Shown: positions 46,263 through 63,113 of the stretch, in pieces | Position numbering within the stretch: position 1 is the stretch's first letter | Layout of the letters: each line of letters starts with the position of its first letter | Source of the DNA: Petrimonas mucosa | GTDB lineage: Bacteria; Bacteroidota; Bacteroidia; Bacteroidales; Dysgonomonadaceae | Direction: 5' to 3' | Length of the DNA: 64,000 nucleotides | Assembly (NCBI RefSeq): GCF_900095795.1 | Contig: NZ_LT608328.1 | Location: 1,791,001-1,855,000, forward strand | Made by a program: the position numbers and the translations under genes | Notes under the pieces: model-generated | The model's database searches: none | Seen by the model: the letters and a program-made list of their open reading frames with translations, nothing else | Told to the model about the DNA's origin: nothing

Positions 46263-47347
46263 AATGATTATCCGCAATAGTTCCTATTGTAAATTCTTGA
46301 CTTGAAATCAGGAGCATACGTTACAGCGGCTATCAACAGTCTTTCAAACTGGTTTTCCCCGAAGTAACGCCTGTTGAATTTATAACAGAACTGGTTGAGG
46401 TAATATTGCAAGTATTCTGGTTTTATCTTGTAATACACGCCCAGGAGCTGTCGTTTGGCATTGCTGATCGCGGTATGCACCCAGGGCAGCACCTTGGAAA
46501 GATCCTGGTGTGGAATAACAGATGCCGTATGTGAATGAACATGCTCTTTCAATTTAGTGTAAGATGTTGAGTCATCGGTGGTCAGATCCGCCGTGCTTTC
46601 AACGTGCTCTTTGACATTCCTTGTAATTGTACCGGACTTCAAGTCACTGATCACTTTCATTTTCAGGTATCTAACCTTCTTGGGTTTCTTACCCGGCTTG
46701 GGGTTTTCAACCGTTTTGCTTTCAGCCATTACCAGCACTTTGGTCTTTTTTTGGCTCCCGCGGCCGCGCTTCAACGGTTTGTCCCTCTCTTCAAGGGATA
46801 TTTCGGTGGAAAAGAAGGCGTCGTCCAACTCGATGGCTCCCTCGAGGGTGTACTCATCATCGCGTTTGCCCATCACGTCACGCAGTTTATTGACCATTTC
46901 CCATATGGGCTGGTAACGCTTGTGCCCCAGCTGGCGCTGCAGCTCCGCCGCGGAAAAGGAGCCCTTGGTCGCCGTGAGCAGGTGCATGGCCACGAACCAG
47001 TAACGGTAAGGCAGGTTGGAGTGCTGCATGACGGTGCCTGAACGCAAGGTTTGGCGTGCGCGACAACGCTTGCATTCATAGGCCTGCTTGTTTTCCAGCC
47101 AATAATGTTCTTTACAATTACAATGACGACAGGTTACTCCCATTTGGTCTCTTTGTTCTTTGAATTTTTTCCGACAGGATTCCTCATCGGGGTAATTTAT
47201 AGCAAAATCCAGGATATTCATAGTTTGAATCTTTATATCGTTAGCGATGTAAATATAATGAATATCAGTGAATTGTGCAAGTGTTTTTGAAACTTATTTA
47301 TAACTTTTTCCCGTTAAATTCTTTAGGAATAACTGCGGATAATCATT
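46263..47347 (-). mobile_element. IS1595-family insertion sequence, copy 2
   Basis: 1085 bases, the same element as 9155-10239 in opposite orientation, with an exact 8-bp target duplication TAACTAAA (46255-46262 and 47348-47355). No difference from copy 1 was seen in the parts I compared. Confidence 0.95.
46268..47221 (-). CDS. IS1595 family transposase (ISXO2-like)
   Basis: 317 residues, identical in every position to the transposase of copy 1 (9281-10234). Zinc-ribbon N-terminus and ISXO2-like catalytic domain; see copy 1 for motifs. It is intact and lies upstream of, and on the same strand as, the PIF1-like helicase gene. Confidence 0.93.
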   Translation of the reverse strand: MNILDFAINYPDEESCRKKFKEQRDQMGVTCRHCNCKEHYWLENKQAYECKRCRARQTLRSGTVMQHSNLPYRYWFVAMHLLTATKGSFSAAELQRQLGHKRYQPIWEMVNKLRDVMGKRDDEYTLEGAIELDDAFFSTEISLEERDKPLKRGRGSQKKTKVLVMAESKTVENPKPGKKPKKVRYLKMKVISDLKSGTITRNVKEHVESTADLTTDDSTSYTKLKEHVHSHTASVIPHQDLSKVLPWVHTAISNAKRQLLGVYYKIKPEYLQYYLNQFCYKFNRRYFGENQFERLLIAAVTYAPDFKSRIYNRNYCG

Positions 47348-47472
47348 TAACTAAAATAGGGGATAACCCGAAATATAAAAATCCAAATTGGCTGGCAGGA
47401 TTCACGCCTAAACCGATATGCACCGGCGAATAACGATCAATAAAATTATTTCCTAAAAGTCTCAAATAAAAG

Positions 47473-47543
47473 TTGCATGTATCAGATAAAGTATTTATCT
47501 TTAAGGTGTTAAATAAAAAATAACACTCACCTGACACATGCAA
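47473..47543 (+). promoter_or_regulatory. Inverted repeat over the start of the IS1380-like transposase gene
   Basis: TTGCATGTATCAG pairs with CTGACACATGCAA (one mismatch) across a loop that contains a TATCTTTA -7-like motif and a second small hairpin (GTGTTA / TAACAC). The right arm covers the ATG at 47538, so transcripts entering from outside could hide the start codon, as in other IS elements. Confidence 0.45.
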
Positions 47544-48866
47544 TACAAAAATAGTAAAAAAATCTCATTTACTGCCTGTTCAGTAAAGAAAAAGTTCAGT
47601 TCAGAACAATTAACATCATATTCAGGGTTAAGCGTAACCTCTGATTTTATCAACCATTGCGGTATTTATGGCAAGCTGGAACATCTTTTTCCAACCATCC
47701 GCCACAATGCAAGCCGTTTCAGCACAGCCCAAATACTCTCAAGTATCCTGTTGGCATCGTTGTGCGGTGTTCACCGTTTGAAGCGGATTGAAAACTTCAC
47801 CTTTGACGCCTTGGTTGCCCGCTTGTTGAAGTTACCCAAGAACATTGACCAGGACACCATCCGCCGCCATTTGACAGGTTTGGGTGAAAGGGGCGCCCGT
47901 TCGCTTCACGAGCTGTTGTTGGGTTTTACAGGCATGCAAGTTTCCCGTTGCGGTTTAAGCCGCTTGACACTTGATTGCGACTCAAGCACATTTACCGTTT
48001 ACGGCAACCAACAAGGGGCTGAGGTGGGTTATAACTCGCATAAGAAGGGTTCGAAAAGCTATCACCCCATCTTATGTTTTGTCACGGAGATGAAACTGCT
48101 TGTCAATTCATGGCTCCGCCCGGGTTCAGCTTACACCTCAAACGGAGTTTGTGAGTTTGTCAAAGAAACCTTGGCCGCTCTTCCCCAAAAGGTGGAGAAG
48201 GTGTTTTTCAGGGCCGACAGCGGTTTTTTCAATGGTGGATTATTTAATTTGTTAGAAGACGGTAAACATGAATATTTGGTGAAAGTAAAGCTGAAAAACC
48301 TGAAAGATTTACTTGCCGGGCAGACTTGGCAGCCGATTGGCCCACGGACGGCGACCTGTCAGTTTACACATCAATGTAGCGGTTGGAGGAATCCCCGCAT
48401 GTTTTATGCCGTGCGCATCATAAAGCAAATGGTTGAAGTCGATTATTTTGGCGAAAAACAATTTGTACCCGAGTATGAGTACTTTTGCTATTGCTCGAAC
48501 CTGAAAGGATTGGATGCCTTGCAGCTCCATACCCTTTATGGATCCCGATCAGAGAGTGAGAATTGGATCGAGCAAACCAAAAACTCGCTTTGTGCGGGAA
48601 AAACCATCACGCATGATTTTTGGGTAAACGATATTCTTTGGCAACTTTCGTCATTTGCCTACAGTTTATCGGTGCTCATGCGATACCGGGGCGACTTTTG
48701 GGTTTGGCGTCAAGAGCACTCTACCTTCCGAGAATGGTTTATCCGAGTGCCGGGAAAAGTGGTGAAATCCGGCAGGCAGGTCACGGTAAAAATGCCTAAG
48801 GAGTATTACCGAAAAGCGGGGTGGCGTGATTTTGAGCAGCGAATAACGACAACGATGACCGGATGA
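47538..48866 (+). CDS. IS1380-like DDE transposase
   Basis: 442-residue transposase of the DDE_Tnp_1/IS1380 type: LTLDCDSSTFTVYGNQQGAE (first Asp), KKGSKSYHPILCF, VFFRADSGFFNGGLF (second Asp) and LYGSRSESENWIEQTKNSL (final Glu), followed by the C-terminal WLSSFAYSL-like membrane-facing helix. Looks full length. I could not find convincing terminal repeats: candidate DNA is 47356-47537 on the left and 48867-49100 on the right. The element limits are therefore open. Confidence 0.85.
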   Translation: MQYKNSKKISFTACSVKKKFSSEQLTSYSGLSVTSDFINHCGIYGKLEHLFPTIRHNASRFSTAQILSSILLASLCGVHRLKRIENFTFDALVARLLKLPKNIDQDTIRRHLTGLGERGARSLHELLLGFTGMQVSRCGLSRLTLDCDSSTFTVYGNQQGAEVGYNSHKKGSKSYHPILCFVTEMKLLVNSWLRPGSAYTSNGVCEFVKETLAALPQKVEKVFFRADSGFFNGGLFNLLEDGKHEYLVKVKLKNLKDLLAGQTWQPIGPRTATCQFTHQCSGWRNPRMFYAVRIIKQMVEVDYFGEKQFVPEYEYFCYCSNLKGLDALQLHTLYGSRSESENWIEQTKNSLCAGKTITHDFWVNDILWQLSSFAYSLSVLMRYRGDFWVWRQEHSTFREWFIRVPGKVVKSGRQVTVKMPKEYYRKAGWRDFEQRITTTMTG

Positions 48867-49167
48867 CGGATTTTCACTTAATCGTCCATCGCCATCTTTC
48901 GTGTCGTAAAAGGGTTTATGACAAGGAATTGCCATGCCTTGGAAGAGTGATAATGTTAATATATATAAAAATGCCACCATAAAAAGTAAATCAACACGTT
49001 AAACGTGCAAGAAACAGTGAAGATGAAAAGAAAATAAAACGGTATCTCTCGAAAAAAAAGAGAAATTCCGCTTTGAAAACTATTAACTTGAGTTGGGAAT
49101 TTCAAATGAGATTTTTAAGTATTTTTCAAAAAAAGTATACTATTTTTGTCATAATATAATATTTTCG
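48867..49167. other. AT-rich intergenic region, IS end to ABC cluster
   Basis: About 300 bases without a supported gene. It probably holds the right end of the IS1380-like element, which I could not define, and the upstream region of the ABC operon. The second half is very AT-rich. Confidence 0.5.
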
Positions 49168-49175
49168 TATATTTG
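49168..49175 (+). promoter_or_regulatory. Bacteroidota promoter of the ABC export cluster
   Basis: TATATTTG (-7) with TTG at 49146-49148, 19 bases apart: both parts of the Bacteroidota sigma-factor consensus at the expected spacing. It excludes the in-frame ATG at 49173 as the start of the first gene. Confidence 0.7.
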
Positions 49176-49211
49176 CATCCGAATAGTATACAAAACAAAA
49201 GATTCAAAACG

Positions 49212-49934
49212 ATGAGCGAAAAAGAAAAAATCATTCGATTGACCGGTCTCGTGAAACAGTTTCCCGTGGGAGACGGCCATTTCACGGCACTGAACGGGAT
49301 TAACCTGACCATCGAACGTGGGGAGTTCCTCGGGCTGGTCGGGCCCAGCGGATCGGGTAAAACCACCCTGCTGAACATCATCGGCTCGCTTGACACGCCC
49401 ACAGAGGGGGAAGCGATCGTTCTGGAACACTCCGTTTCGTCACTCACCGCCAAAGAGTCGGCCGCGTTGCGCAACAAAAGCATCGGGTTTATTTTCCAGA
49501 GCTACAACCTGCTGCCGGTTCACACGGTGTACGAGAACGTGGAGTTTCCCCTGCTGCTCCAGAAGAGATCGGCCGGAGAGCGCTACAAGGCGGTAATGAA
49601 CGCCCTCGAGTGGGTGGGATTAACGGATAAAGCGGCATCGCGCCCGGCACAGCTATCGGGAGGGGAGAGCCAGCGGGTAGCCATTGCCCGCGCGATGGTG
49701 AAGCGTCCCGACGTTGTCCTGGCCGACGAGCCTTCGGCAAACCTCGATGCAAAAAACTCGCATACCATCCTTCAAACAATGCGGCAACTGAACGAAGAGC
49801 TAAACACGACCTTCGTTTTCGCCACGCACGACGAGAAAGTGATGCAGTACCTTCGACGAATTGTTTATCTGGAAGACGGAAAAGTGGAAAAAGACGAGAT
49901 AATTCAAGATTCAACGTTCAACATTCAAAATTGA
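49212..49934 (+). CDS. ABC transporter ATP-binding protein (LolD/MacB type)
   Basis: 240-residue ATPase of the lipoprotein-export/MacB group: Walker A GPSGSGKTT, Q-loop IFQSYNLLP, signature LSGGESQRVAIARA, Walker B VVLADEPSANLD, H-loop FATHDEKV. With the two permeases downstream it would form a LolCDE-like or MacB-like exporter. The start at 49212 (MSEKEK) follows the promoter; 49173 is inside the -7 box. The last residues (IIQDSTFNIQN) are encoded by the heptad array that begins at 49901, so the array has replaced or extended the native C-terminus. Confidence 0.9.
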   Translation: MSEKEKIIRLTGLVKQFPVGDGHFTALNGINLTIERGEFLGLVGPSGSGKTTLLNIIGSLDTPTEGEAIVLEHSVSSLTAKESAALRNKSIGFIFQSYNLLPVHTVYENVEFPLLLQKRSAGERYKAVMNALEWVGLTDKAASRPAQLSGGESQRVAIARAMVKRPDVVLADEPSANLDAKNSHTILQTMRQLNEELNTTFVFATHDEKVMQYLRRIVYLEDGKVEKDEIIQDSTFNIQN

Positions 49935-49972
49935 ACATAAAATCTGGAATCTTAAATTTGGAATTTGGAATT
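49901..49972. repeat. Heptad array A1
   Basis: Left-type heptads (ATTCAAG, ATTCAAC, GTTCAAC, ATTCAAA) followed by right-type ones (AATCTGG, AATCTTA, AATTTGG, AATTTGG), ending directly before the ATG of the first permease. It overlaps the end of the ATPase gene. Overall an imperfect inverted repeat. Confidence 0.75.
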
Positions 49973-51145
49973 ATGTTACTATTTAAAACAGCAATAAAAA
50001 ACATCCTGGGCGCGGGCAGGCGTACATGGTTAAACGTGGCTGTCCTCTCTTTCACTTTCGTTCTGATGACCGCGTTCAACGGATTGATAGACGGGTGGGT
50101 GAACGACGCGATCGTGGACACCCGCGACTGGGAAACGGGAGCGGGACAATTCTGGCACGAGAACTACGACCGGTATGACGTGTTTACATTACAGGACGCG
50201 CACGGCATGCCCCCGGACGCGTTCGCTCCCTGTCTTGCCGATAAATCGCTCACTCCCATCCTCGTGATACAGGCGGTCGCGTACGAATCGGGAAACATGC
50301 AGAATATCCAGTTAAAGGGCATCGACCCGTCGCAACAACTGCTGGAGATTCCTTCACGCTATTTACACGCGGACGACGATGCCCTTAACGCGGTAATCGG
50401 CGCGAGAATGGCCCGAACGCTGAACGCGGACGAGGGAGACCGCCTGCTTATACGATGGCGGGACAAGAACGGGGCTTTTGATGCACGGGAGATCGTGATC
50501 GCGTCCATATTCAACTCGAGCATCGCCACCGTGGACGAAGGGCAGGTGTGGATCGCCCTTGATAAGCTCCGTGAAATGACCGGAATGCAGGACGAAGCAA
50601 CCTACCTGGTAAGATCGGCCGACTGTCCCCTTGAACAGGACGTGAACGGGTGGCACTATAAAGATTCGGATTTCCTGCTGGAGGACCTCTACCTCATGGC
50701 GCAACACAGCCGCGTGGAGTCGCTCATCATCTTCACCATCCTGCTGGCCATCGCTTTGTTGGCGGTATTCGATACCCAGACGCTCTCCATCTTCCGACGC
50801 CAAAAGGAGATAGGAACCTATATCTCCCTCGGAATGACACCCAAGCAGGTGACAAGACTATTCACGCTGGAAGGCACTACCTACAGCCTGCTGGGCATAC
50901 TGGTGGGTGTTCTCTGGGGAACACCCCTTTTATACTGGTACGGACAAACAGGAATCACGCTGCCGGAAAGTTACACCGAGATTGGCCTGGGCATGCGTGA
51001 AACCATGCGACCCGTATACGACCCCGGGACAATCCTGACCAGCATCGCGATCATCATATTCATGTCGATGCTGATAAGCTGGCTCCCCACCCGTAAAATA
51101 GCCAAAAGCAACGTGGTAGAAGCATTAAAAGGAAGAATCACCTGA
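49973..51145 (+). CDS. ABC transporter permease (FtsX/LolE type), first
   Basis: 390 residues from ATG 49973; the longer frame from 49931 would be translated from the repeat array. One N-terminal membrane helix (about 20-40), a large periplasmic MacB-PCD-like domain (about 45-250) and three C-terminal helices (about 263-285, 310-335, 358-380), the FtsX layout. Partner of the ATPase and of the second permease at 51275. Confidence 0.88.
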   Translation: MLLFKTAIKNILGAGRRTWLNVAVLSFTFVLMTAFNGLIDGWVNDAIVDTRDWETGAGQFWHENYDRYDVFTLQDAHGMPPDAFAPCLADKSLTPILVIQAVAYESGNMQNIQLKGIDPSQQLLEIPSRYLHADDDALNAVIGARMARTLNADEGDRLLIRWRDKNGAFDAREIVIASIFNSSIATVDEGQVWIALDKLREMTGMQDEATYLVRSADCPLEQDVNGWHYKDSDFLLEDLYLMAQHSRVESLIIFTILLAIALLAVFDTQTLSIFRRQKEIGTYISLGMTPKQVTRLFTLEGTTYSLLGILVGVLWGTPLLYWYGQTGITLPESYTEIGLGMRETMRPVYDPGTILTSIAIIIFMSMLISWLPTRKIAKSNVVEALKGRIT

Positions 51146-51148
51146 GAT

Positions 51149-51274
51149 CATTCAAGATTTCAGATTCAAGATTCATAATTTATGAATGGATGAATTGAAA
51201 CAACGTTCGGCGGAGCCAAAATCGACGTAGTCGAATCTTGAATTTTAAATTTTAAATTTTGAATTTGTAAAATT
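51149..51274. repeat. Heptad array A2 with spacer
   Basis: Left-type half at 51149-51181 (ATTCAAG, ATTTCAG, ATTCAAG, ATTCATA), a non-repeat spacer of about 50 bases, then right-type half from 51231 (AATCTTG, AATTTTA, AATTTTA, AATTTTG) ending before the ATG of the second permease. Same order of halves as A1 and A3. Confidence 0.7.
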
Positions 51275-52546
51275 ATGTTTGCATTTTTATGGAAAGGAAT
51301 CATCCGGGATAAAAGCAGGAGCCTGCTGCCCGTTATTGTCGTGGCCATCGGTGTTTTTGCCATCATCTTTGCTTACGGGCTGATAAGCGGCATGATGTCG
51401 AACATGATTCAAGCTACCGCGAACTTTCAAACCGGCCACCTGAAAGTAATGACGCGGGCGTACAGCGACAACCAGGGACAAAAACCCAACGATCTGGCAC
51501 TGTTAGACGCGGATATGCTCGTGGAACAGCTAACGGCTGATTTTCCCGGCGTGGAGTGGGTTCCCCGTATCTTTTTCGGTGGCCTCCTCGATATTCCCGA
51601 TCAGGACGGCGAGACCAGAGCGCAAGGGCCGGTATCGGGAACGGCCTACGATTTCCTGTCGGGCAATAATGGCGAGATAGAGCGCATCGGTTTGAGAACC
51701 GCGCTGGTATCCGGCAACATTATCCGACAACCGAACGAGATCATCATCAGCATCGATTTTGCAGAAACACACGAGGTTCTTCCCGGGGACAGGATTACTT
51801 TTTTCGGTTCCACGATGCATGGGGCGATGAGTTTTGCCAACTATACCGTGGCGGGAATTGCACGCTTCGGCATGGCACAGCTCGATAGGGGAGCCGTTAT
51901 ATTGGATATCTCGGACGCGCGGCTGCTATTGGATATGGAGAACGCGACGAGTGAACTGTTCGGCTATCTTCCCGGTAACACGTACGACCAGGAGGAGACG
52001 GAGCGGATAAAGTCGGCGTTCAATGAACGGTACACCGATGAAACAGACGAGTTCGCGCCGGTGATGCTTCAATTGGTGGATCAAAATTTCATGAACCAAA
52101 CCATCGCGATGATGGACGCGATATTGGTTATCATGGTGATTCTACTGGTGGTCGCGCTCTCCATCGTTCTTTGGAACACGGGCGTGTTAGGAGGGATAAG
52201 ACGTTATAACGAGTTTGGCGTACGCCTGGCTTTGGGGGAAGAAAAAAAGCATATCTATCGCACCCTGTTGAGCGAATCAATGCTGATAGGTGTGATCGGG
52301 TCCGCGGTCGGGACTGCCGCGGGAGTTGCCCTCTCGCTCTACCTGCAGAAGCATGGCATCGACTACAGCGCGATGATGGAAAACGTGAACATGATGATCA
52401 CCCCCGTCATTCGATCGGAAGTGACGCCCCAACTCTATTATATAGGATTTATCCCGGGTGTTATCTCCATGCTTGTCGGATCGGCACTGGCCGGGACAGC
52501 CGTTTACAAGCGTAACACGGCCATGTTGTTTAAGGAACTGGATTAA
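51275..52546 (+). CDS. ABC transporter permease (FtsX/LolE type), second
   Basis: 423 residues, FtsX layout: N-terminal helix (about 14-40, VIVVAIGVFAIIFAYGLISG), periplasmic MacB-PCD-like domain (about 45-270), and three C-terminal helices (about 280-305, 335-358, 385-408). The motif RRYNEFGVRLALGEEKKHI precedes the second of these, as in LolC/LolE. With the first permease and the ATPase it forms a complete exporter; the LolA-like protein follows. Confidence 0.88.
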   Translation: MFAFLWKGIIRDKSRSLLPVIVVAIGVFAIIFAYGLISGMMSNMIQATANFQTGHLKVMTRAYSDNQGQKPNDLALLDADMLVEQLTADFPGVEWVPRIFFGGLLDIPDQDGETRAQGPVSGTAYDFLSGNNGEIERIGLRTALVSGNIIRQPNEIIISIDFAETHEVLPGDRITFFGSTMHGAMSFANYTVAGIARFGMAQLDRGAVILDISDARLLLDMENATSELFGYLPGNTYDQEETERIKSAFNERYTDETDEFAPVMLQLVDQNFMNQTIAMMDAILVIMVILLVVALSIVLWNTGVLGGIRRYNEFGVRLALGEEKKHIYRTLLSESMLIGVIGSAVGTAAGVALSLYLQKHGIDYSAMMENVNMMITPVIRSEVTPQLYYIGFIPGVISMLVGSALAGTAVYKRNTAMLFKELD

Positions 52547-52548
52547 AC

Positions 52549-52625
52549 TATTCAAGATTCAAAATTCAAGATTCAAAATTACGGTAATCTGAAATCTGGA
52601 ATCTGAAATCTGAAATTATAAAATT
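52549..52625. repeat. Heptad array A3
   Basis: The clearest array: four left-type heptads (ATTCAAG, ATTCAAA, ATTCAAG, ATTCAAA), centre TTACGGT, then four right-type (AATCTGA, AATCTGG, AATCTGA, AATCTGA), ending shortly before the next ATG. The halves are imperfect inverted copies and could form a hairpin in RNA. Confidence 0.8.
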
Positions 52626-53360
52626 ATGAAAAAGCTAACTGTATTATTACTTATTACTGTTTTTACAAGTTCTGTTTTCGCGCAAGACGCGGAACAGATT
52701 ATCAGGGACGTGGACAGGAACCTCTCTGCCGACAGCCGGATCGTGGAATCGAGCATGACGGTACACGGGAGGCGAAGCAGCCGCACGATGACTTCAAAAA
52801 GTTATACCGTCGGAAATGAAAAATCGTTCACGGAATACCTCTCGCCCGCGCGCGAAAAAGGGACGAAGATGTTGAAGCTGGACAAAGAGATGTGGCTTTA
52901 TTCACCTTCGACCGACCGCACGATCATGATCTCGGGACATATGCTGCGGCAATCGGTGATGGGTTCCGATCTGTCCTACGAGGATATGATGGAGGATCGA
53001 AAGCTTTCCGATATGTACACCGCTTCACTTGCCGGCGAAGAGACCATAGAGGGGCGCGCGTGTCATGTCCTGCAGCTGAAATCCAAAGTGGCCGACGCGG
53101 CCTACGATGTTCAAAAGCTATGGGTCGATATCGAGCGGCTCGTCCCGTTGAAACAAGAGCTCTACGCGAAAAGCGGGCAGCTCCTCAAACAGGTAAGCCT
53201 GGGCGACGTGCAACGGGTCAATGACCGGTGGTATCCCATGAAGATGGTATACAAGGATATGCTCAAGGATGGTAAGGGAACAGAATGGATGATCACGAAG
53301 ATTGAATTCGACACACGAATACCGGAACATGTTTTCTCGAAAGCAAGTTTGAAACAATAG
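52626..53360 (+). CDS. Outer-membrane lipoprotein-sorting protein (LolA-like)
   Basis: 244-residue periplasmic protein with a signal peptide (MKKLTVLLLITVFTSSVFA, 1-19) and a LolA-like half-barrel. It matches the group annotated as outer-membrane lipoprotein-sorting proteins: KMLKLDKEMWLYSPSTDRTIMIS split around the WLYSP motif, RQSVMGSDLSYEDMM, and VQKLWVDIERLVPLKQELYA. Next to an FtsX-type exporter it is likely to receive a lipid or lipoprotein cargo released from the inner membrane. Confidence 0.88.
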   Translation: MKKLTVLLLITVFTSSVFAQDAEQIIRDVDRNLSADSRIVESSMTVHGRRSSRTMTSKSYTVGNEKSFTEYLSPAREKGTKMLKLDKEMWLYSPSTDRTIMISGHMLRQSVMGSDLSYEDMMEDRKLSDMYTASLAGEETIEGRACHVLQLKSKVADAAYDVQKLWVDIERLVPLKQELYAKSGQLLKQVSLGDVQRVNDRWYPMKMVYKDMLKDGKGTEWMITKIEFDTRIPEHVFSKASLKQ

Positions 53361-53361
53361 G

Positions 53362-53399
53362 ATTTAAGATTCAAGATTCAAAATTTAAGATTTAAGATT
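53362..53399. repeat. Heptad array A4, left-type half before the S23 gene
   Basis: Only left-type heptads (ATTTAAG, ATTCAAG, ATTCAAA, ATTTAAG, ATTTAAG), ending directly at the ATG of the four-helix-bundle gene. Confidence 0.75.
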
Positions 53400-53789
53400 A
53401 TGTCGAAGATAGAACGTTTCGAAGATTTAGAAGTATGGAAAATGGCTCGTTCTTTTTCGAAGAATATATACCTGATATTAGAGAAAGAGCTCTTTTTGAA
53501 AGACTTTCGGTTACGAGATCAAATGAGAGGATCTGTCGGATCAATTATGGATAATATTGCAGAGGGATTTGAACGTAACGGCAATAAGGAATTTGTTCAG
53601 TTTCTCTTTATATCAAAAGGTTCTTGCGGAGAAGTTCGTAGTCAACTATACAGAGCGTTAGATATAGGATATATTTGTCAAGAAGAATTTGATAAGCTAT
53701 ATCAGGAAGCATTAAAGATATCTCAATCCCTGTCCGGATTTATCAAATATTTAAAGGCTTCTGAGTTTCAAGGAACAAAATATAAATAA
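53400..53789 (+). CDS. Four-helix-bundle protein (S23 / 23S rRNA intervening-sequence family)
   Basis: 129-residue all-helical protein of the S23 family: RFEDLEVWKMARSFSKNIY at the start, then RLRDQMRGSVGSIMDNIAEGFER and LFISKGSCGEVRSQLYRALDIG, the family signatures. Members occur inside 23S rRNA intervening sequences and, as the Avd relative, in diversity-generating retroelements; the biochemical role is unclear. It interrupts an otherwise coherent export operon, is visibly more AT-rich than its neighbours, and is bounded by a left-type and a right-type heptad half, so it looks like an inserted unit. Confidence 0.9.
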   Translation: MSKIERFEDLEVWKMARSFSKNIYLILEKELFLKDFRLRDQMRGSVGSIMDNIAEGFERNGNKEFVQFLFISKGSCGEVRSQLYRALDIGYICQEEFDKLYQEALKISQSLSGFIKYLKASEFQGTKYK

Positions 53790-53847
53790 AATCTGGAATC
53801 TGAAATCTGAAATCTGGAATCTGAAATCTGGAATCTGAAATTATAAA
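53788..53847. repeat. Heptad array A5, right-type half after the S23 gene
   Basis: Seven right-type heptads (AATCTGG, AATCTGA, AATCTGA, AATCTGG, AATCTGA, AATCTGG, AATCTGA), then AATTATAAAC and the ATG of the TetR gene. It starts at the stop codon of the S23 gene. Confidence 0.8.
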
Positions 53848-53850
53848 CAT

Positions 53851-54441
53851 ATGACGAAAAAGCAAAACGATATTTTTGAGGCGGCAAAAAAACTCTTTTA
53901 CAAGTTTGGCGTACGAAGAGTGACGATTGAAGATATTTGTGAGGAAGCCAACGCGAGTAAAATGACATTTTACAAGTATTTTCCTAACAAAATAGAACTG
54001 GTTAAAGCCGTTGTAGACAATTATTTTTCCAATGCAATGGAAAAATATCGGGAAATGATGCAATCAGAAATAACGGCTGAAGAAAAAATCAGGAGAACAT
54101 TTGAATTAAAGTTGGAAAGTGCCATGGGCCTCGAAATGGATTTTCTGGCAGATCTGTATAAATATCCCGACGACGCGCTTAAGGAACATTTAAACGTATG
54201 GAAACAGAGAAGCATCGATCTCACGAAAAGCTGGTTTATTGAAATGCAACAAAACGGACTGATCATAAAAGAGCTCAATTTCCCGGTTTTCATGCTGTAT
54301 GCCGACGCCATACAATCTTTTGTCCTCAACGATGAAACGATGAATTTTTTCGGGACTACGCGAGAATTAACGCACACCGTCTCAAGGCTCTTATTGTACG
54401 GCATCACGGAAAGAAAAGGAGAAGAAAACCCGACGGAATAG
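53851..54441 (+). CDS. TetR/AcrR family transcriptional regulator
   Basis: 196 residues. The N-terminal helix-turn-helix (about 8-55) contains FGVRRVTIEDICEEANASKMTFYKYFPNK split around the recognition helix MTFYKYF, typical of TetR. The helical C-terminal domain (60-196) would bind a ligand that is not identifiable. It lies in the exporter cluster and probably controls it. AT-rich compared with the exporter genes. Confidence 0.92.
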   Translation: MTKKQNDIFEAAKKLFYKFGVRRVTIEDICEEANASKMTFYKYFPNKIELVKAVVDNYFSNAMEKYREMMQSEITAEEKIRRTFELKLESAMGLEMDFLADLYKYPDDALKEHLNVWKQRSIDLTKSWFIEMQQNGLIIKELNFPVFMLYADAIQSFVLNDETMNFFGTTRELTHTVSRLLLYGITERKGEENPTE

Positions 54442-54467
54442 TTTTTTGACGGATAGGGCTTCAGTGG

Positions 54468-54503
54468 GATCTGAAATCTGAAATCTGAAACCTGAAATTG
54501 TAA
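54468..54503. repeat. Heptad array A6
   Basis: Right-type heptads only (ATCTGAA repeated, one ACCTGAA), ending just before the ATG at 54507. No left half is recognisable in the preceding 25 bases. Confidence 0.7.
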
Positions 54504-54506
54504 ACA

Positions 54507-55787
54507 ATGAACAAGACTTATATACTCCTACTATTTGCTTTCTATGTATCCTTGTTAGCTGCACAAGGAAGCAACAATTCCACGAAATTCCCAGGAAATC
54601 AAACAGAATATGAGGCGGAAAGAGACAGCGTGGTGCATCCGGGAAAAGACGTTACGGAAGATCAACCAGAACGTGAGACAGACCGAGACAGCGTGGTAAA
54701 CAGGGGAAACAGGCCGGCAAGAGATCCTATCCAATTTCGATACAGCGGGCAGCTATCCGGATGGGGACAGGTTACTCCCGATACCCCCACGAAAGGGTGG
54801 CTGGGAGGGCGTTACATTCCACAGATCAATCTCACTCAACCGCTTGAAAACAATCAATTAATAGACCTCGAAGCATCCGTCAACCTCTTCGGCGATATAG
54901 GGATCCGCTCGTTCGACAATACCTCAACCGACGCTACAATAAAACCGTACAGGGCATGGGCACGTTATGCATCCACAAGAGCGGAAGTAAGGCTTGGCCT
55001 GCAAAAAATTAATTTCGGCTCGGCCCAAATGTTCCGCCCGCTGATGTGGTTCGACAGCATGGACCCGCGTGACCCGCTACAGCTCACCGATGGAGTCTGG
55101 GGAGGACTGTTCCGGTACTACTTCCCCAATAATACCACCTTGTGGTTGTGGTCCCTCTACGGCAACGATAAGAACAAAGGGTGGGAAATACTCCCTTCAT
55201 CCAGTTCGTTCCCCGAAATAGGCGGCAGGGTGCAGATACCGATCCCAAAAGGAGAAGGAGCGCTCTCCTATCATTTCCGCGAAGCGGATGCAAGCGCGTA
55301 CGGCCTTGAAAAGATCGCGGAAAACCGTTTCGGGCTTGATGTGCGGCTCGACGCGACCGTGGGACTCTGGTTCGAAAGCTCGTGGACGCACCTGAACGGC
55401 GACATGGGCGAACTTACCAACCAACAGATGGCAACATTGGGAACGGATTACACGTTCGGGATCGGGAACGGCCTTGGCCTCACCTTTGAACAGTTCTTCT
55501 ATTCATACGGCGAGAGAGGGATCGACTTCAACCAATCACTCAACTTCTCGGGGCTGAACCTCTCCTACCCGCTCTCGATGGCCGATAACCTCAGCGCGAT
55601 GGTGTATTACGACTGGGGGAACCAGCGTTTTTATAATTTTCTAAACTGGCAACATCAACGAAACAACGTGACCTTCTACACGATCGGGTACTGGAACCCG
55701 AGCGAATTCGGCATTCCTTCCCAAATGGGTACTGGATCCCGCTTTGCCGGTAAAGGCATCCAACTAATTATTGCCTGGCATCACTGA
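54507..55787 (+). CDS. Predicted outer-membrane porin-like protein
   Basis: 426 residues with a signal peptide (1-19, LLFAFYVSLLAAQG), a charged linker with two similar ERDSVV segments (about 35-70), then a region of alternating strands with many aromatic residues ending in an aromatic C-terminus (IQLIIAWHH), as for a porin-like barrel. No family is recognised. Its place after the exporter, LolA-like protein and TetR gene suggests an outer-membrane part of the same system; a role as export channel or cargo is inference. Confidence 0.75.
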   Translation: MNKTYILLLFAFYVSLLAAQGSNNSTKFPGNQTEYEAERDSVVHPGKDVTEDQPERETDRDSVVNRGNRPARDPIQFRYSGQLSGWGQVTPDTPTKGWLGGRYIPQINLTQPLENNQLIDLEASVNLFGDIGIRSFDNTSTDATIKPYRAWARYASTRAEVRLGLQKINFGSAQMFRPLMWFDSMDPRDPLQLTDGVWGGLFRYYFPNNTTLWLWSLYGNDKNKGWEILPSSSSFPEIGGRVQIPIPKGEGALSYHFREADASAYGLEKIAENRFGLDVRLDATVGLWFESSWTHLNGDMGELTNQQMATLGTDYTFGIGNGLGLTFEQFFYSYGERGIDFNQSLNFSGLNLSYPLSMADNLSAMVYYDWGNQRFYNFLNWQHQRNNVTFYTIGYWNPSEFGIPSQMGTGSRFAGKGIQLIIAWHH

Positions 55788-56153
55788 TACACGTTCATCA
55801 ATTAGCAATTAATTTGGCGCGAGATACCAAAACCGGCGAACTGAAAACCATGCTCTACTCTATAACCAATAGATTTGAATACAGGGTGGTCGGGGAGACC
55901 ATAACAGGGAAGGTGATCGAATCGAGAAGCAATCCTCAAGGGATTCTATGGAGATTTGAGGGAGGGTATTGGTTTTTTTTGTAATTTTGAAACCTATTTC
56001 AAAAAAGAACCGGATTCCAGATTTTTATTGGTTTGTATGGGGTTATGTCCCATATTGACCTGGTATGTTTATAAAACGATCAGATAAAACAATCGCGTGA
56101 AACGAGCATGAGAGACAAGGACTCGTGAAGACAAGATTAAAACATCTTGGTCC
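55788..56153. other. Intergenic region with a possible gene remnant
   Basis: About 370 bases before the pheT leader. A 44-codon frame at 55850-55984 (MLYSITNRFEYRVVGETITG..., open upstream to about 55791 without a start) could be the tail of a decayed gene; I cannot assign it. The rest shows no supported feature. Confidence 0.35.
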
Positions 56154-56209
56154 TTGAATCTGAAATCTTGAATCTGAAATTTGAAATCCGGAATCCGGAA
56201 TCTTAAAGA
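56154..56209. repeat. Heptad array A7 before pheT
   Basis: Right-type heptads in degenerate form (GAATCTGAAATCTTG, AATCTGA, AATTTGA, AATCCGG, AATCCGG, AATCTTA), ending 13 bases before the pheT ATG. Confidence 0.7.
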
Positions 56210-56222
56210 TAAAAACAATCGT

Positions 56223-58684
56223 ATGAATATTTCGTACAACTGGCTCAAAGAGTACCTGCAATTCGACCTTTCCCCGCGAGAGACTGCCGATGCCCTCACG
56301 GACATCGGGCTGGAAGCCGAAGGGGTGGAAGAGATTCAATCCATAAAGGGAGGGCTGGAAGGACTGGTGATCGGCGAGGTGCTTACCTGCACGGCGCACC
56401 CCAATTCCGACCACCTGCACCTGACCACCGTGGATATCGGTAACGGCGAAGCCCCGCTCGACATCGTGTGCGGTGCACCCAACGTGGCTGCCGGCCAAAA
56501 AGTGGTGGTAGCCACCATCGGTACAAAGCTGTATATAGACGAGAAAGAGTTCACCATCAAACGCTCCAAGATACGGGGCGAAGAGTCCAGGGGCATGATT
56601 TGCGCCGAAGACGAGATCGGCATCAGCACATCGCACGACGGCATTATCGTGCTCCCCGACGATGCGGTAGTGGGCACTCCCGCCAAAGAATACTACAACG
56701 TGCAGAGCGATCACCTGCTGGAGATCGACATCACGCCCAACCGGGTGGACGCCGCTTCGCATTTTGGCGTGGCACGCGACTTGGCGGCCTACCTGAAGCA
56801 GGCCGGAAAGCCGTGCGAGCTGAAGAAGCCGTCGGTAGAGGCGTTCGCGGTCGATACCGACAACGGAGGTATCGAGGTGATCGTGGAAAACAGCACCGCC
56901 TGTCCCCGCTACTCGGGGCTGACCATCCGCGGGGTGACGGTGAAAGAGAGCCCCGGTTGGCTAAAAAACTACCTGACGACCATCGGGCTGCGCCCCATCA
57001 ACAACGTGGTGGATATCACCAATTTCGTGCTTCACGAAACGGGACACCCCCTCCACGCGTTCGACGCGGCATACATCACCGGCGATGAGGTAGTGATTCG
57101 TACCCTGCCGGCGAAAACAAAATTCATCACGCTCGACGAGCAGGAACGTGAACTCGACGAGAACGACCTGATGATCTGCAACTCCGAAGAGGGGATGTGC
57201 ATCGCGGGGGTGTTCGGCGGGCTGCACTCGGGAGTCACGGAACAAACCCGGGACGTGTTCCTGGAATCGGCCTACTTTAACCCCACGTGGGTACGAAAGA
57301 CCGCCCGGCGACACGGGCTGAACACCGACTCGTCGTTCCGCTTCGAGCGAGGAGCCGACCCTAACAACACGGTCCACGTGCTGAAACGAGCCGCCATGCT
57401 GATCAAAGAAATGGCCGGCGGAACCATCGCGGGAGCCATACGGGATATCTATCCCACGCCCATCGAGCGGCCGCGGGTGACGCTCTCCTACCAAAAGATA
57501 ACATCGCTAATCGGTAAAGAGATCCCCCCGCGAGCGTGAAGAGCATCCTTCATAGCCTGGAGGTCGAGATCGAAAGCGAAACGGAGAACGAACTCCAGTT
57601 GCGTGTTCCCACCTACCGGATAGACGTCACCCGCGACGTGGACGTGATCGAGGACATCCTGCGTATCTACGGGTACAATAACGTGGAGATCAGCGATTCG
57701 CTAAAGGCAAACCTGTCATACCAGACCCCGACCGACCGCAAACAGAAACTGCAAACGCTTGTATCGGAACAACTCACCGCGAACGGGTTCCACGAGATCA
57801 TGAACAACTCGCTGACCAAAAAGAGTTACTACGAATCGCGCGCGACCTACCCGGCCAAAAACAGCGTATCATTAGTAAACCCGTTGAGCAACGATCTGGG
57901 TGTCATGCGCCAGACACTCCTCTTCGGGGGACTCGAGAGCATTGCCTACAACCGCAACCGGAAGCATCTCGACCTTCGCTTTTATGAATTCGGGAACTGC
58001 TACTTCTACGATCGGGAACGGAAGAAAGAAGACAATATACTGGCCGAGTACTCGGAGGAGTTCCATATTGGCTTGTGGATATGCGGAAAACGTACCCATA
58101 AAAACTGGGCGGCCGCGGAAGAGCAAAGCTCGGTGTACGAACTGAAAGCGCACGTGGAGAATATCCTGAAGAGGTTGGGAATAAACGAAAATCGGTTGGT
58201 TTTCGAATCGATCGAAAACGATATTCTATCCACGGGGATAAGCATCCGCACACGGAAACACCCTGTCGGGAGCTTTGGCATCGTCTCCCCGGGAATCCGG
58301 AAATCGTTCGATATCGAAACCGATGTTTTCTATGCTGAACTGAACTGGGACCGGCTGATGAAAGAAACCGAGAAGCAGCCGGTACGTTTCTCCGAAATCT
58401 CTAAATTCCCTGCCGTGAGCAGGGACCTGGCACTGCTGGTCGACCGGCAGATCCCCTTCTCGCGGATCCGCCAGATAGCCTTCGAATCGGAGAAGAAGCT
58501 GCTGAGAGAAGTATCGCTGTTCGACGTGTACGAAGGCAAAAACCTGCCGGAAGGCAAGAAGTCCTACGCGGTGAATTTCCTGTTGCAAGACGAGGAGAAA
58601 ACGCTTACCGACAATCAGATCGACAAGGCAATGAAGAAGATCCAGCAAAACCTGGAAAAAGAATTGGAAGCACAACTAAGGTAA
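56223..58684 (+). CDS. pheT: Phenylalanyl-tRNA synthetase beta subunit, frameshifted
   Basis: Beta subunit of the (alpha-beta)2 PheRS; it carries the editing site and tRNA contacts. The first frame (56223-57539) holds the EMAP-like tRNA-binding domain (about 40-150, CGAPNVAAGQKVVVA), the B3/B4 editing domain (RPINNVVDITNFVLHETGHPLHAFD split around VVDITNF) and part of B5. The second frame (57536-58684) holds the rest of B5, the core and the anticodon-binding FDX domain. The break lies at a run of six C (57524-57529): one more C would join GKEIPP to ASVKSILHSLE in one frame of about 820 residues. As the gene is normally essential, a sequencing error is the likely reason, but a real indel is possible. 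Confidence 0.9.
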
Positions 58685-60164: not shown

Positions 60165-60676
60165 GAGTCCGCTCCGAAAAGTCGGAGGGATAATTTTAGT
60201 TTATAATTTTTCCTGTTCATAACCTTTTATTCACCGGGTGATTTTCACCCTGAAAAATCTCCTTGAAATATTCGCGTATGTAATTATTATTCATTATCTT
60301 AGCGGTGTATTTAAACTCGTTACAACATGTTTAAGAAATCAGATTCCCATAGTCAATTAGACCTGTTTTCATCGCCAACGGAGTACTTCAGGGGCTCCAA
60401 GAAGAAGGAATACCTGAAAGATGGCTCCTGGCATAACCTGTTTCGCAAAGAGGTCGTGATGCGCGTTGACGAGAATATATTCAGCGTGCTCTATTCCGAG
60501 GGTAACGGCGCGCCCAACGCTTCGATACGCGTACTGGTCGGGATGATGATCCTGAAGGAGGGCCAGGGATGGAGCGACAGGCAGCTTTTTTCCGAATGCG
60601 GGTACAACCTTTTGACTCGAAGCGCGCTGGGACTCATGTCCCTCGAGGACGCCGAGCCGGTCCCGTCCACCTATTA

Positions 60677-61710
60677 ACGTGAGTTCGGGATAAGAAAATC
60701 ATAAAAAAAGTTGTGATATAGGGAGATTATTTGTATATTTATAGCTGTTAATCAAACAAATAACAAACATCAACCCTATGATCACAACAGACAAAGTTAT
60801 TGAAATATTTTGTATTGCCGACGATTTTTGTGCAGAATATGAGAATGAAATCCGGAATCACCAACTTCAAGCAGGTGACATAACGAAAAGGAGAAACAGG
60901 AAAACGCAAATGTCTCAGAGCGAGATTATTGCCGTGATGGTCTGCTTCCACTGTGGAACCTTTCATAATTTCAAGAATTATTACCTGTTTTATATTTGCA
61001 AGCACATGAAGAGCTATTTTCCAAATGCCGTTTCCTACAACCGTTTTGTCGAGTTGCAACCCAGGGTGATTGTACCTTTCATGCTGTTGCTCAAACTCTT
61101 TGGATTTGGTGAATGCACAGGCATTACATATGTGGATAGCACTCCAATCAAAGTATGTCATAACAAGCGTATCCACTCGAATAAAGTATTCAGGGATTTG
61201 GCACAAAGAGGGAAAAGTACGATGGGCTGGTTTTTTGGATTCAAGCTTCATCTGGTCTGTAATGAAAAGGGTGAATTGCTGAATTTCTCTCTCACAAAAG
61301 GCAATGTCGACGATAGAAACCCTGACGTAATCAATGTTCTTACCAAAGATCTTTTCGGTAAACTATATGCAGACAAGGGTTACATCAGCACAAAGCTCTT
61401 CGAGATGCTGTTTGACCAGGGAGTTCATTTAGTGACCGGTATACGCTCAAATATGAAAAATTCCCTGATGTCATTCCGCGACAAGATTCTCTTACGCAAA
61501 AGATCTGTAATTGAGTCCATCAATGATGAACTGAAGAATATCTGCCAGATAGAACATTCAAGGCATCGTTCCACACATAATTTCATCATGAACATAATTG
61601 CTGCATTGGTGGCATATTGTTTCTTTCCCAAAAAGCCTTCAATCAAATTTGAAGTGGAAAAGTCAAGTCAATTAACCATTTGGGGATAATATGTTATCCC
61701 GAACTCACGT
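60677..61710 (+). mobile_element. IS982-family insertion sequence
   Basis: 1034 bases with perfect 17-base ends ACGTGAGTTCGGGATAA / TTATCCCGAACTCACGT and target duplication TATTA (60672-60676 and 61711-61715). The uninterrupted target sequence is seen in the left IS1182 copy (CACCTATTACC), which confirms the boundaries. Confidence 0.92.
60778..61689 (+). CDS. IS982 family transposase
   Basis: 303-residue DDE transposase: TQMSQSEIIAVMVCFHCG (N-terminal family motif), YVDSTPIKVCHNKRI (first Asp), LYADKGYISTKLF (second Asp) and KRSVIESINDELKNIC (final Glu), as in IS982. Apparently intact. A GTG/TTG-free leader of about 100 bases precedes the ATG. Confidence 0.93.
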   Translation: MITTDKVIEIFCIADDFCAEYENEIRNHQLQAGDITKRRNRKTQMSQSEIIAVMVCFHCGTFHNFKNYYLFYICKHMKSYFPNAVSYNRFVELQPRVIVPFMLLLKLFGFGECTGITYVDSTPIKVCHNKRIHSNKVFRDLAQRGKSTMGWFFGFKLHLVCNEKGELLNFSLTKGNVDDRNPDVINVLTKDLFGKLYADKGYISTKLFEMLFDQGVHLVTGIRSNMKNSLMSFRDKILLRKRSVIESINDELKNICQIEHSRHRSTHNFIMNIIAALVAYCFFPKKPSIKFEVEKSSQLTIWG

Positions 61711-63113
61711 TATTACCTTTTCCGCCGTAACCTGGTTGAACACGAGAAGGAACACGGCGTGGACCTGTTCAAGGAGTGCCAGTCGCGAATCACCCGCGAC
61801 CAGGCCCTCGAGTTCAACGTGGAAGGCAAGCGGGTGCGCATGGACAGCAAGCTGGTCGGCAGCAACATCGCCTGGTACTCCCGGTACGAGTTGATCCACG
61901 AGACCCTTCGCCTGTTCATCGCTGAAAGAGAGGAGCATATCTTCAAAAGAAGCCTTTCCAAAGAGATGTTCTCCCTTATCGAGAGCATCCGGGGCGAAAC
62001 GGGAAACAAGGTGGTCTACCGCAGCACGAAGGAGGAGGTGGACGCCCGTTTCTTGGAGTTGGGCAAACTAATGTACCTGTTTATCAACCTCTTCAAGAAG
62101 CATGACTATGGACAGTACGGGACCCTTAAAGCGGTCTTCGAGCAGCAATACACCGTCAGCCGGGAAAAGGTCGTCCTCCCGCTCGAGAAGGAAAAGGTGA
62201 GCGCCAAGTCCATCCAGTCGCCCCACGACACCGACTGCCACTACCGCGACAAGGACGGCAACAAGGTCAAGGGGTACTCGGTGAACATCACCGAGACATG
62301 CGATCAGGCGGGGGATGGGCAAGAGGCGGCGTTGAACCTGGTAACCGACACGCGGGTAAAGGAGGTTTCAGCCCCGGACAACGGTTTCTTTCAGCAAGCC
62401 CTGGAACAGACACGGGAAGTAACAACCGGCGAGATCGAGAAGGTGCATGCCGACGGGGCTTACAACAGTGCCGAGAACCGGGAGTACTGCCAAAGCGATG
62501 AAAGCGGCATCGACATGGTGATCACCGCCATTCAGGGAGCGATGCCGAGATATGACATCCGCCTGGATGAACATGACGATAGCAACCTGATAGTCAAAGA
62601 TAACAAGACGGGGGAACTAGTACAATCGTACCCGGTAAAACCCCGGGGAGACAAGACGAAAAGGAAATGGAGTATCAAGACCGGTGAAAGGAAATACCGC
62701 TACTTCGACGAGGAAAACCTCAGGGTTGCCGGGTTGCGACGGAAACTAAAGGATATCCCCCCGGGGGAATCCTGCCTCAGGAACAATGTCGAGGCGACCA
62801 TCTTCCAGCTTGGCTACCATTACCCGGATGACAAGAGCCGTTACAGGACACTTGCCAAGCACAAGCTATGGGCTTACTCCCGCTCGTTGTGGATAAACTT
62901 CGTCAGGATAGCAAATTACACGACGCGAACATGTCAAAGAGCACTTTCGGGGCAAAAAACGTCCCGATATATGACTAATTTATGTTTCAATATGCATATT
63001 ATTGTAAACAAATTTATTTTCAACAAGAACAATCAAAACTGTCCGGCGAAATCGCTTTTTTCAGCAATTTGAAAAAAAGAGGTTTTCAGAGCGGACTCAA
63101 AAACAGATTTCGA

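Follow-up and report, generated by a model that had tools for sequence, protein, structure and literature searches.

The S23 gene of Petrimonas mucosa and the two arrays of seven-base repeats that enclose it are read here, with somewhat better than even confidence, as an insertable hairpin unit, built of S23 between a left and a right heptad arm, in which the S23 protein would recognize the arms and a separate enzyme would act as the mover. Comparative evidence at the level of sequence documents the anatomy of the unit, an inverted pairing specific to each locus, a period of 7 (at some loci 8 or 9) and presence or absence at an exact gene junction, as well as closely related S23 genes that occupy different sites, copies of a unit's arrays that lack the gene, both near it and farther away, and sampled S23-less DNA that is free of arrays. 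The parts, S23 and heptad arrays, have been known separately, and it is their joining that appears to be new: a search of the open-access literature (subscription papers and bioRxiv preprints being outside its scope) found no paper that connects S23 with heptad arrays, and for S23 with repeats it gave nothing relevant besides the paper on the intervening sequence (IVS) of Coxiella.

Organization of the S23 locus

The window is the whole 64,000-nucleotide stretch analyzed, and the features discussed here are collected in Table 1. The left arm begins at the stop codon of the LolA-like gene. As the preliminary description had reported, it finishes at the S23 ATG, and the first base of the right arm directly follows the S23 stop codon. 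The space between the LolA-like and TetR genes is filled by the left array, S23 and the right array, and the host operon is an export operon.

Table 1. Heptad arrays and genes at and around the S23 locus (window coordinates).
Feature	Position	Strand	Basis or details
Array at ABC ATPase / FtsX1 junction	49902-49972 (49902-49932 + 49955-49972)	+	TRF
Gene-less array with ~57-base spacer, FtsX1 / FtsX2 junction	51150-51271	+	TRF
Gene-less joined array, FtsX2 / LolA-like junction	52550-52616 (left 52550-52580, right 52586-52616)	+	sequence, TRF, scan
LolA-like outer-membrane lipoprotein-sorting protein, upstream host gene	52626-53360	+	PF17131 E 1.1e-59
Left arm of S23 unit	53361-53399	+	5.6 heptads, ATTYAAR type; sequence, TRF, array scan
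S23 / 23S_rRNA_IVP four-helix-bundle gene	53400-53789	+	129 aa; PF05635 E 4.7e-33; TIGR02436 E 1.4e-31
Right arm of S23 unit	53790-53841	+	~7.4 heptads, ATCTGRA type; sequence, TRF, array scan
TetR-family regulator, downstream host gene	53851-54441	+	PF00440
Right-type array, TetR / porin-like gene gap	54469-54497	+	TRF
Right-type array, upstream of next + strand gene (ATG 56223)	56157-56202	+	TRF

The left-arm unit varies among ATTTAAG, ATTCAAG and ATTCAAA and the right-arm unit between ATCTGGA and ATCTGAA, the right arm being an imperfect inverted complement of the left. The pairing score of the locus is 19.0, and in an earlier run over 58 loci its own right flank ranked first of 58. In the predicted RNA fold of the unit the left and right arms pair with each other, with only a moderate excess over shuffled sequences (z −2.2, 1/100 shuffles). 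The S23 gene is AT-rich, as had been noted before: its GC content is 0.336, compared with 0.393 for the TetR gene, 0.50 for the LolA-like gene, 0.52–0.53 for the porin-like, FtsX2 and ABC genes and 0.485 for the window. An Rfam search of window positions 48000-58000 gave no match.

According to the ORF list, Pfam and the predicted fold, S23 is the sole gene of the unit, which contains neither a transposase gene nor a recognized nuclease domain, and it is the only S23 gene in the genome (3,717,632 bases, single contig). The AF2 model has a pLDDT of 92.5, and its nearest folds in Foldseek are 2GSC and 2RLD, followed by Avd (4DWL; E 0.02, TM 0.75, ~11% identity), with 8UB7 matched as well. Two S23 sequences in the PDB have been solved, each with five chains and both labelled uncharacterized, and the Xanthomonas one of the two is described in the available text of PMC4990558 as a pentameric ring. 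Genomes with S23 made up 225 of the 295 sampled in the order, 232 of 296 in the phylum and 68 of 101 in the family; a search of a phage collection gave no match.

The whole contig was scanned for three copies of the left or the right unit with at most two mismatches. The scan returned 14 and 16 overlapping matches for the two units, all within C1:1840941-1847191 (window 49941-56191, ~6.3 kb); a backward control pattern in the same genome gave no match for the right unit and 3, on the reverse strand, for the left. The joined array at the FtsX2/LolA-like junction lies ~750 bases upstream of the S23 unit; its halves, first described as joined by a few bases, are 5 bases apart, and the spacer of the FtsX1/FtsX2 array, put at ~50 bases at that time, measures ~57. 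Among 147 S23 loci, the flanks of the window's own S23 are the best match both to the unit of the joined array, which has a weak predicted hairpin (z −1.8), and to the 51233-51266 part of the spaced array. The two arrays downstream of the TetR gene are further members of the set. Six of 101 family genomes carry the window's right unit; in the five others the inspected loci are not beside S23, and all six genomes have S23 somewhere. The first part of the ABC ATPase/FtsX1 array extends into the coding region of the ABC ATPase at its 3′ end (stop at 49934), and the last residues of this gene are encoded by heptad repeat sequence (49902-49934). Transposase-like ORFs spotted by eye flank the operon region a few kb off (window 46268-48866 and 60327-63072).

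Inverted pairing and period of S23 flanks

The locus pool comprised 170 S23 loci, namely the best-scoring loci of the order, phylum and family searches, 80 named loci and the window. A usable S23 ORF and both 120-bp flanks were available for 161 of them, and 147 were left after removal of near-duplicates; the Bacteroidota loci in the pool are top-scoring S23 matches, and divergent S23 are under-sampled. When the left 150 bp was compared with the right 150 bp in inverted orientation, pairing averaged 14.99 for the locus's own flanks versus 8.18 for cross combinations (0 of 10,000 permutations). Scores of at least 12 were obtained for 95 of the 147 S23 loci versus 9 of 279 control genes, in line with the enrichment of heptads at S23 flanks that had been predicted, and low pairing (<10) was found at 26 of the 147. 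Inverted pairing was higher than direct pairing at 109 loci, equal at 4 and lower at 34. Direct pairing is likewise raised (11.95 vs 7.98 over the 147 loci) because same-direction arrays occur on both sides at some loci. The idea that the window is one odd locus is rejected by the 147-locus comparison.

The best period of either flank is 7 at 90 loci, 8 at 14, 9 at 3 and 5 at 1, with none at 39; shuffled flanks have no period in 143 of 147 cases. In a set of 59 loci examined before, arrays with a score of at least 10 were located within 300 bp of S23 with period 7 at 28 loci and period 8 at 8, and period-7 arrays were located beside 15 of the 274 control genes of that set. General AT-rich slippage was considered as a source of the periodicity and rejected, there being little signal at lags besides 7, its multiples and 8, and no array in the S23-less DNA sampled. 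The left/right heptad unit of the preliminary description has thus turned out to be general in its period and inverted pairing and not in its word, since the repeat unit differs by locus and lineage. Left arms lean to RAGWNNN, with AG in 86 of 95 and at least two AG in 81 of 95, and with C at only 0.10. The AG words are a tendency and not a rule, the left arms of L046, L049 and L250 being without AG.

Pairing was also compared inside each of six groups of loci with similar junctions, for which the names HCDH, thiolase, SdhAB, MutAB and acyl-CoA dehydrogenase are by-eye assignments from the protein sequences. Own versus cross pairing is 18.4 versus 9.8 in the thiolase/acyl-CoA dehydrogenase group (own best at 7 of 9 loci), 15.4 versus 7.8 in the mutase group (4 of 5), 16.7 versus 12.2 in the SdhAB group (3 of 10), 13.2 versus 9.3 in the HCDH/thiolase group (5 of 19), 15.3 versus 10.8 in the f142 group (3 of 5) and 15.8 versus 14.9 in the last group (1 of 4). 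These values fit arms that change jointly, via selection for pairing or exchange between the arms; in groups with separate insertions, the own-pair excess may also come from different starting units.

The choice between periods 8 and 7 tracks the S23 tree, requiring 9 changes against a shuffled mean of 13.4, with none of 2,000 shuffles as low. Of 114 loci with a clear period, this test excluded the 3 with period 9 and used the 110 of the remaining 111 that were represented in the tree; the tree was built from 121 columns for 146 rows, and many of its forks are poorly supported. The signal weakens but persists when each combination of site and period is reduced to a single row (at most 14 of 500). 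The tracking of period along the tree is the main pointer, and a hint, that the S23 protein itself may set the spacing. At the sdhA|sdhB locus L277 (G622) the two arms, judged by eye, apparently differ, with a period of 8 on the left and of 7 on the right.

S23 on cyanobacterial plasmids and in other phyla

A plasmid collection of 72,556 records contained 24 matches to the S23 of L064; all twelve listed matches are cyanobacterial, and ten of the 24 loci were analyzed. A period-7 array lies within 200 bp of S23 at 8 of the ten, pairing is at least 12 at 7, and at least one of these signs is present at all ten, where own pairing averages 18.75 versus 9.0 for cross pairing. S23 is co-directional with both annotated neighbors at 6 of the 10 loci and opposes both at L394, L395 and L396. 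It is located between cas6 and cas4, type I-D genes, on Pseudanabaena and Anabaena plasmids, and between cas10/cmr2 and a cmr3-family gene on a Picosynechococcus plasmid; the Pseudanabaena stretch carries heptad arrays at several junctions, mostly of the TTAGCTT/AAAAGCT word. The S23 genes within CRISPR-Cas operons are those of L393, L398 and L401 (cas6-S23-cas4 twice, cmr2-S23-cmr3 once). Outside the cyanobacteria, S23 genes with flanking arrays are also seen in Thiohalocapsa halophila DSM 6210 (L252) and several bins of other phyla, among which misbinned contigs are possible.

Presence and absence at gene junctions

Both neighbors are co-directional with S23 at 121 of 140 loci (7 more at contig edges were set aside) versus 301 of 576 control genes. 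In the family, 94 genomes had an SdhB match, and the sdhA|sdhB junction was surveyed for the best 30 of these. S23 is present at 13 of the 30 junctions, which measure 311-529 bp (12 measured), and the other 17 have 6-38 bp between the genes, with no array visible by eye in any of them. The SdhB of a non-carrier can be 96% identical to that of a carrier, and on the sdhB tree carriage needs 8 changes, at least 6 of them on well-supported branches, gains and losses being pooled. No obvious target-site duplication was seen at this junction by eye. Two non-carriers (G630 and G625) have ~ten bases that by eye resemble a single repeat of the right arm in a carrier and may be a scar.

The site occupied in the window was also examined in relatives, eight of which have the ABC-FtsX-FtsX-LolA-porin genes and no S23 match. 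Arrays with a score of at least 10 occur in two of these stretches, one with a TAACTGA-type array upstream of lolA (L076) and the other with an array outside the ABC-FtsX-FtsX-LolA-porin genes (L081). In G019, tetR directly adjoins lolA, with no S23 between them. Empty sites of the kind envisaged in the preliminary description are thus found in relatives, both in the 17 of 30 sdhA|sdhB junctions and in the direct passage from lolA to tetR in G019. That description had taken the joined array for an empty version, and the S23 gene with its two arms for an occupied version, of one unit; the unit itself is upheld by the enrichment and by the empty sites. Because the true empty sites seen carry no array, joined arrays such as 52550-52616 look like gene-less copies, not pre-insertion sites. 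Insertion of S23 into pre-existing arrays was likewise rejected as a candidate, on the by-eye absence of arrays from all 17 empty sdhA|sdhB junctions.

Position and kinship of S23 do not always coincide. L202 and L224 are sister S23 genes (100/97) yet belong to different site groups, the L206 gene is nested in a clade of another site group, and the window's S23 is ~70% identical to its nearest kin L182, none of whose three neighboring ORFs matches the window. The proposal that all S23 genes at one site stem from a single insertion is rejected, the site groups not being single clades. The HCDH-thiolase, SdhAB and f142 labels cluster on the S23 tree, and inheritance in place is therefore also common; the thiolase-ACD and MutAB labels are scattered to roughly the same degree as shuffled ones. 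This distribution suggests that the S23 unit is mobile.

Arrays without the gene and their apparent dependence on S23

Around 74 S23 loci, array density per 10 kb is 4.22 within 400 bp of S23 and then 1.22, 0.90, 0.25, 0.27 and 0.20 at increasing distance, the last value applying to 4-6 kb. Thirty-three arrays are located more than 400 bp from S23; 15 of them match the flanks of their own S23 best among the 147 loci (0.22 expected), 20 have these flanks in the top five, and for 13 the unit of their own S23 falls outside the top five. The 15 come from five loci (six from L204, five from the window, two from L252 and one each from L205 and L219). In Thiohalocapsa (L252), a gene-less inverted pair ~3.9 kb away shares the repeat of its own S23. 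The GTTTAC unit of the S23 locus L092 (G319), arrays of which also occur at L110 of G319, has 33 overlapping matches in the congener G136 and none in 142 of 149 order genomes. Gene-less inverted pairs with the repeat of S23 elsewhere in the genome, a REPIN-like property, are thus found for the window, L252 and the GTTTAC set. Three gene-less GTTTAC arrays of G136 (L314, L318 and L320) stand beside T-run inverted repeats that are terminator-like by eye.

The tie between arrays and S23 is upheld by the enrichment at S23 flanks but is looser than first described: none of the 27 array loci inspected in other genomes, which include 19 of the 30 loci from the GTTTAC search, has S23 within ~1.5 kb, and S23 is therefore not required beside every array. 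It seems, on comparison of genomes, to be needed somewhere in the genome. Arrays with a score of at least 11 away from S23 number 22 in 872 kb of random DNA from S23-bearing genomes and 0 in 704 kb of random DNA from 24 S23-less genomes, a contrast with a chance of 2e-6 if the arrays were independent, which they are not: clustered arrays enter the count as separate events, and GC is unequal between the sets (0.37-0.46). The earlier alternative, that arrays might be equally frequent without S23, did not hold in the DNA sampled.

Proposed mechanism and alternative explanations

The S23 protein probably recognizes the repeat arms, a reading to which period tracking, pairing, distance decay and dependence on S23 all point. 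The unit would enter and leave gene junctions as a single piece, mostly in sense to the operon. S23 would bind the arms as single-stranded RNA or DNA, with approximately one repeat per subunit, and this recognition would keep period and pairing while the letters drift. It would also act in trans on gene-less arrays, which would be non-autonomous copies. Cutting and joining, or copying of the hairpin, would fall to an enzyme encoded outside the unit, because the sole gene of the unit is an Avd-like bundle with no recognized nuclease domain. In the transcript, pairing of the arms would enclose the S23 ORF in a loop, an arrangement also found in rRNA intervening sequences.

The strongest rival, unlikely but deserving serious weight, is a module of RNA regulation in which S23 binds the heptads of its own transcript in the manner of TRAP and tunes the stability or coupling of the neighboring operon genes, with junction arrays as targets and slow spread by ordinary horizontal transfer. 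The predominance of units between co-directional genes (121/140), the repeated AG of the left arms (86 of 95 with AG, 81 with at least two, C at only 0.10), the recurrence of related arrays at the junctions of one operon (the window and the Pseudanabaena cas region) and the five chains of the solved S23 relatives are all consistent with such a module, as is the effect on transcript stability or translation coupling suggested for cyanobacterial 7-bp repeat hairpins in the available text of PMC2670836. A regulator of its neighbors is harder to reconcile with 17 of 30 sdhA|sdhB junctions that are wholly without the unit, with host operons as diverse as the export operon of the window and the cas and cmr operons of plasmids, and with close S23 kin beside unrelated genes.

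It is more doubtful still, and improbable in our view, that S23 is a passenger that merely lands in, or is tolerated within, arrays formed by replication slippage and hairpin repair. Slippage would account for variable period and length, and some genomes are rich in arrays without the gene (G136, with its 33 overlapping matches to one unit), but arrays are absent by eye from the 17 empty sdhA|sdhB junctions and from 704 kb of the sampled S23-less genomes, their density drops away from S23, and their period tracks the S23 tree. An ordinary insertion sequence or MITE, with the arrays as terminal repeats for a transposase encoded elsewhere and S23 as cargo, would explain presence and absence at a single junction (sdhA|sdhB) and the transposase-like ORFs seen by eye a few kb away in the window, but is highly improbable given that the terminal inverted repeats are mostly not common to separate loci (own 14.99 vs cross 8.18), that insertions are mostly sense-oriented and that the constant across phyla is the S23 family and not a transposase.

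Comparison with known systems

By analogy, the insertable hairpin unit is best read as working like REPIN/RAYT systems and rRNA IVSs while being a member of neither. It shares with the 23S rRNA IVSs of Coxiella and Leptospira an S23-family ORF between complementary, stem-forming termini and a sporadic presence; in the window the termini are complementary and can form a stem around the ORF, with a predicted fold only moderately above shuffles. The Coxiella IVS also has a GC content below that of its genome, according to the available text of PMC4990558. Unlike these elements, the unit is located between protein genes (in the window between lolA-like and tetR, not inside a 23S rRNA gene) and has tandem arms of 7-9-base repeats, a locus-specific word and gene-less copies. 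REPIN/RAYT systems are described, in the text available of PMC3116915, as a repeat-associated gene with gene-less inverted pairs that form predicted hairpins in extragenic DNA. The S23 unit likewise combines a repeat-linked gene with gene-less inverted pairs, but RAYTs are tyrosine transposases, whereas the only gene of the window unit encodes a four-helix bundle, and of the repeat only period and pairing are kept, the word being free.

Among intergenic heptamers, the cyanobacterial STRRs are described as 7-bp repeats that form hairpins between genes and whose function is given as unknown (PMC2670836), and the P6b stem of the Nostoc trnL intron contains the heptads TDNGATT and NNTGAGT (PMC4476775); in the available text of these two papers no gene partner is named. 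S23 arrays are likewise intergenic, made of 7-bp units in tandem and capable of hairpin formation, and the cyanobacterial plasmid S23 genes sit within heptamer arrays that resemble these 7-bp repeats. NNTGAGT fits the RAGWNNN tendency of S23 left arms, a similarity of motif alone. TAACTGA heptamers are reported from Beggiatoaceae, Cyanobacteria and Bacteroidetes as intergenic, often upstream of start codons and patchy across phyla (MacGregor 2015, PMC4679880), and an array of this type is present in G019 between FtsX2 and lolA. That paper treats one fixed heptamer, however, and its main text as available contains neither "S23" nor "four helix". Four-helix-bundle genes are listed in PMC5524665 and PMC8700078, where repeats are not mentioned in the text available.

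Avd of diversity-generating retroelements has the same bundle fold as S23, but identity is ~11% and the S23 unit contains no reverse transcriptase. The trp RNA-binding attenuation protein (TRAP) is a ring protein that reads evenly spaced NAG triplets (GAG/UAG), and its fold is unrelated to that of S23. AG-containing words at 7-base spacing and a family with five chains resemble it as a binding analogy only.

A broader proposal, held tentatively and at rather less than even probability, is that S23 is the partner of bacterial heptamer intergenic repeats generally (STRRs, TAACTGA and the Bacteroidota arrays), with a ring that would read approximately one repeat per subunit, with the lineage setting the spacing (7, 8 or 9) and not the letters, and with S23 building, spreading and pairing arrays in cis and in trans. 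If true, mobile hairpins of RNA or DNA would form a class whose defining features are the period of the repeat and its self-complementarity, not its sequence. The ends of such a mobile unit would vary freely while keeping the spacing and the pairing rule, and searches for conserved terminal repeats would miss it. The S23 family is widespread and uncharacterized, and heptamer repeats, in the literature available, have no partner assigned to them; a link between the two would provide each with a function that can be tested.

Two further observations concern the host operon. The LolA-like protein of the window matches that of G019, which belongs to another genus, at 67%, more closely than it does its best counterparts from the same genus (L023, L024, L027-L029; 53-56%), hinting that the operon may have been exchanged between genera. 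The FtsX2/lolA junction carries a TAACTGA-type array in G019 (L076 7184-7207) versus ATTCAAG/ATCTGAA arrays in the window, and a single junction can therefore hold different units in different genomes.
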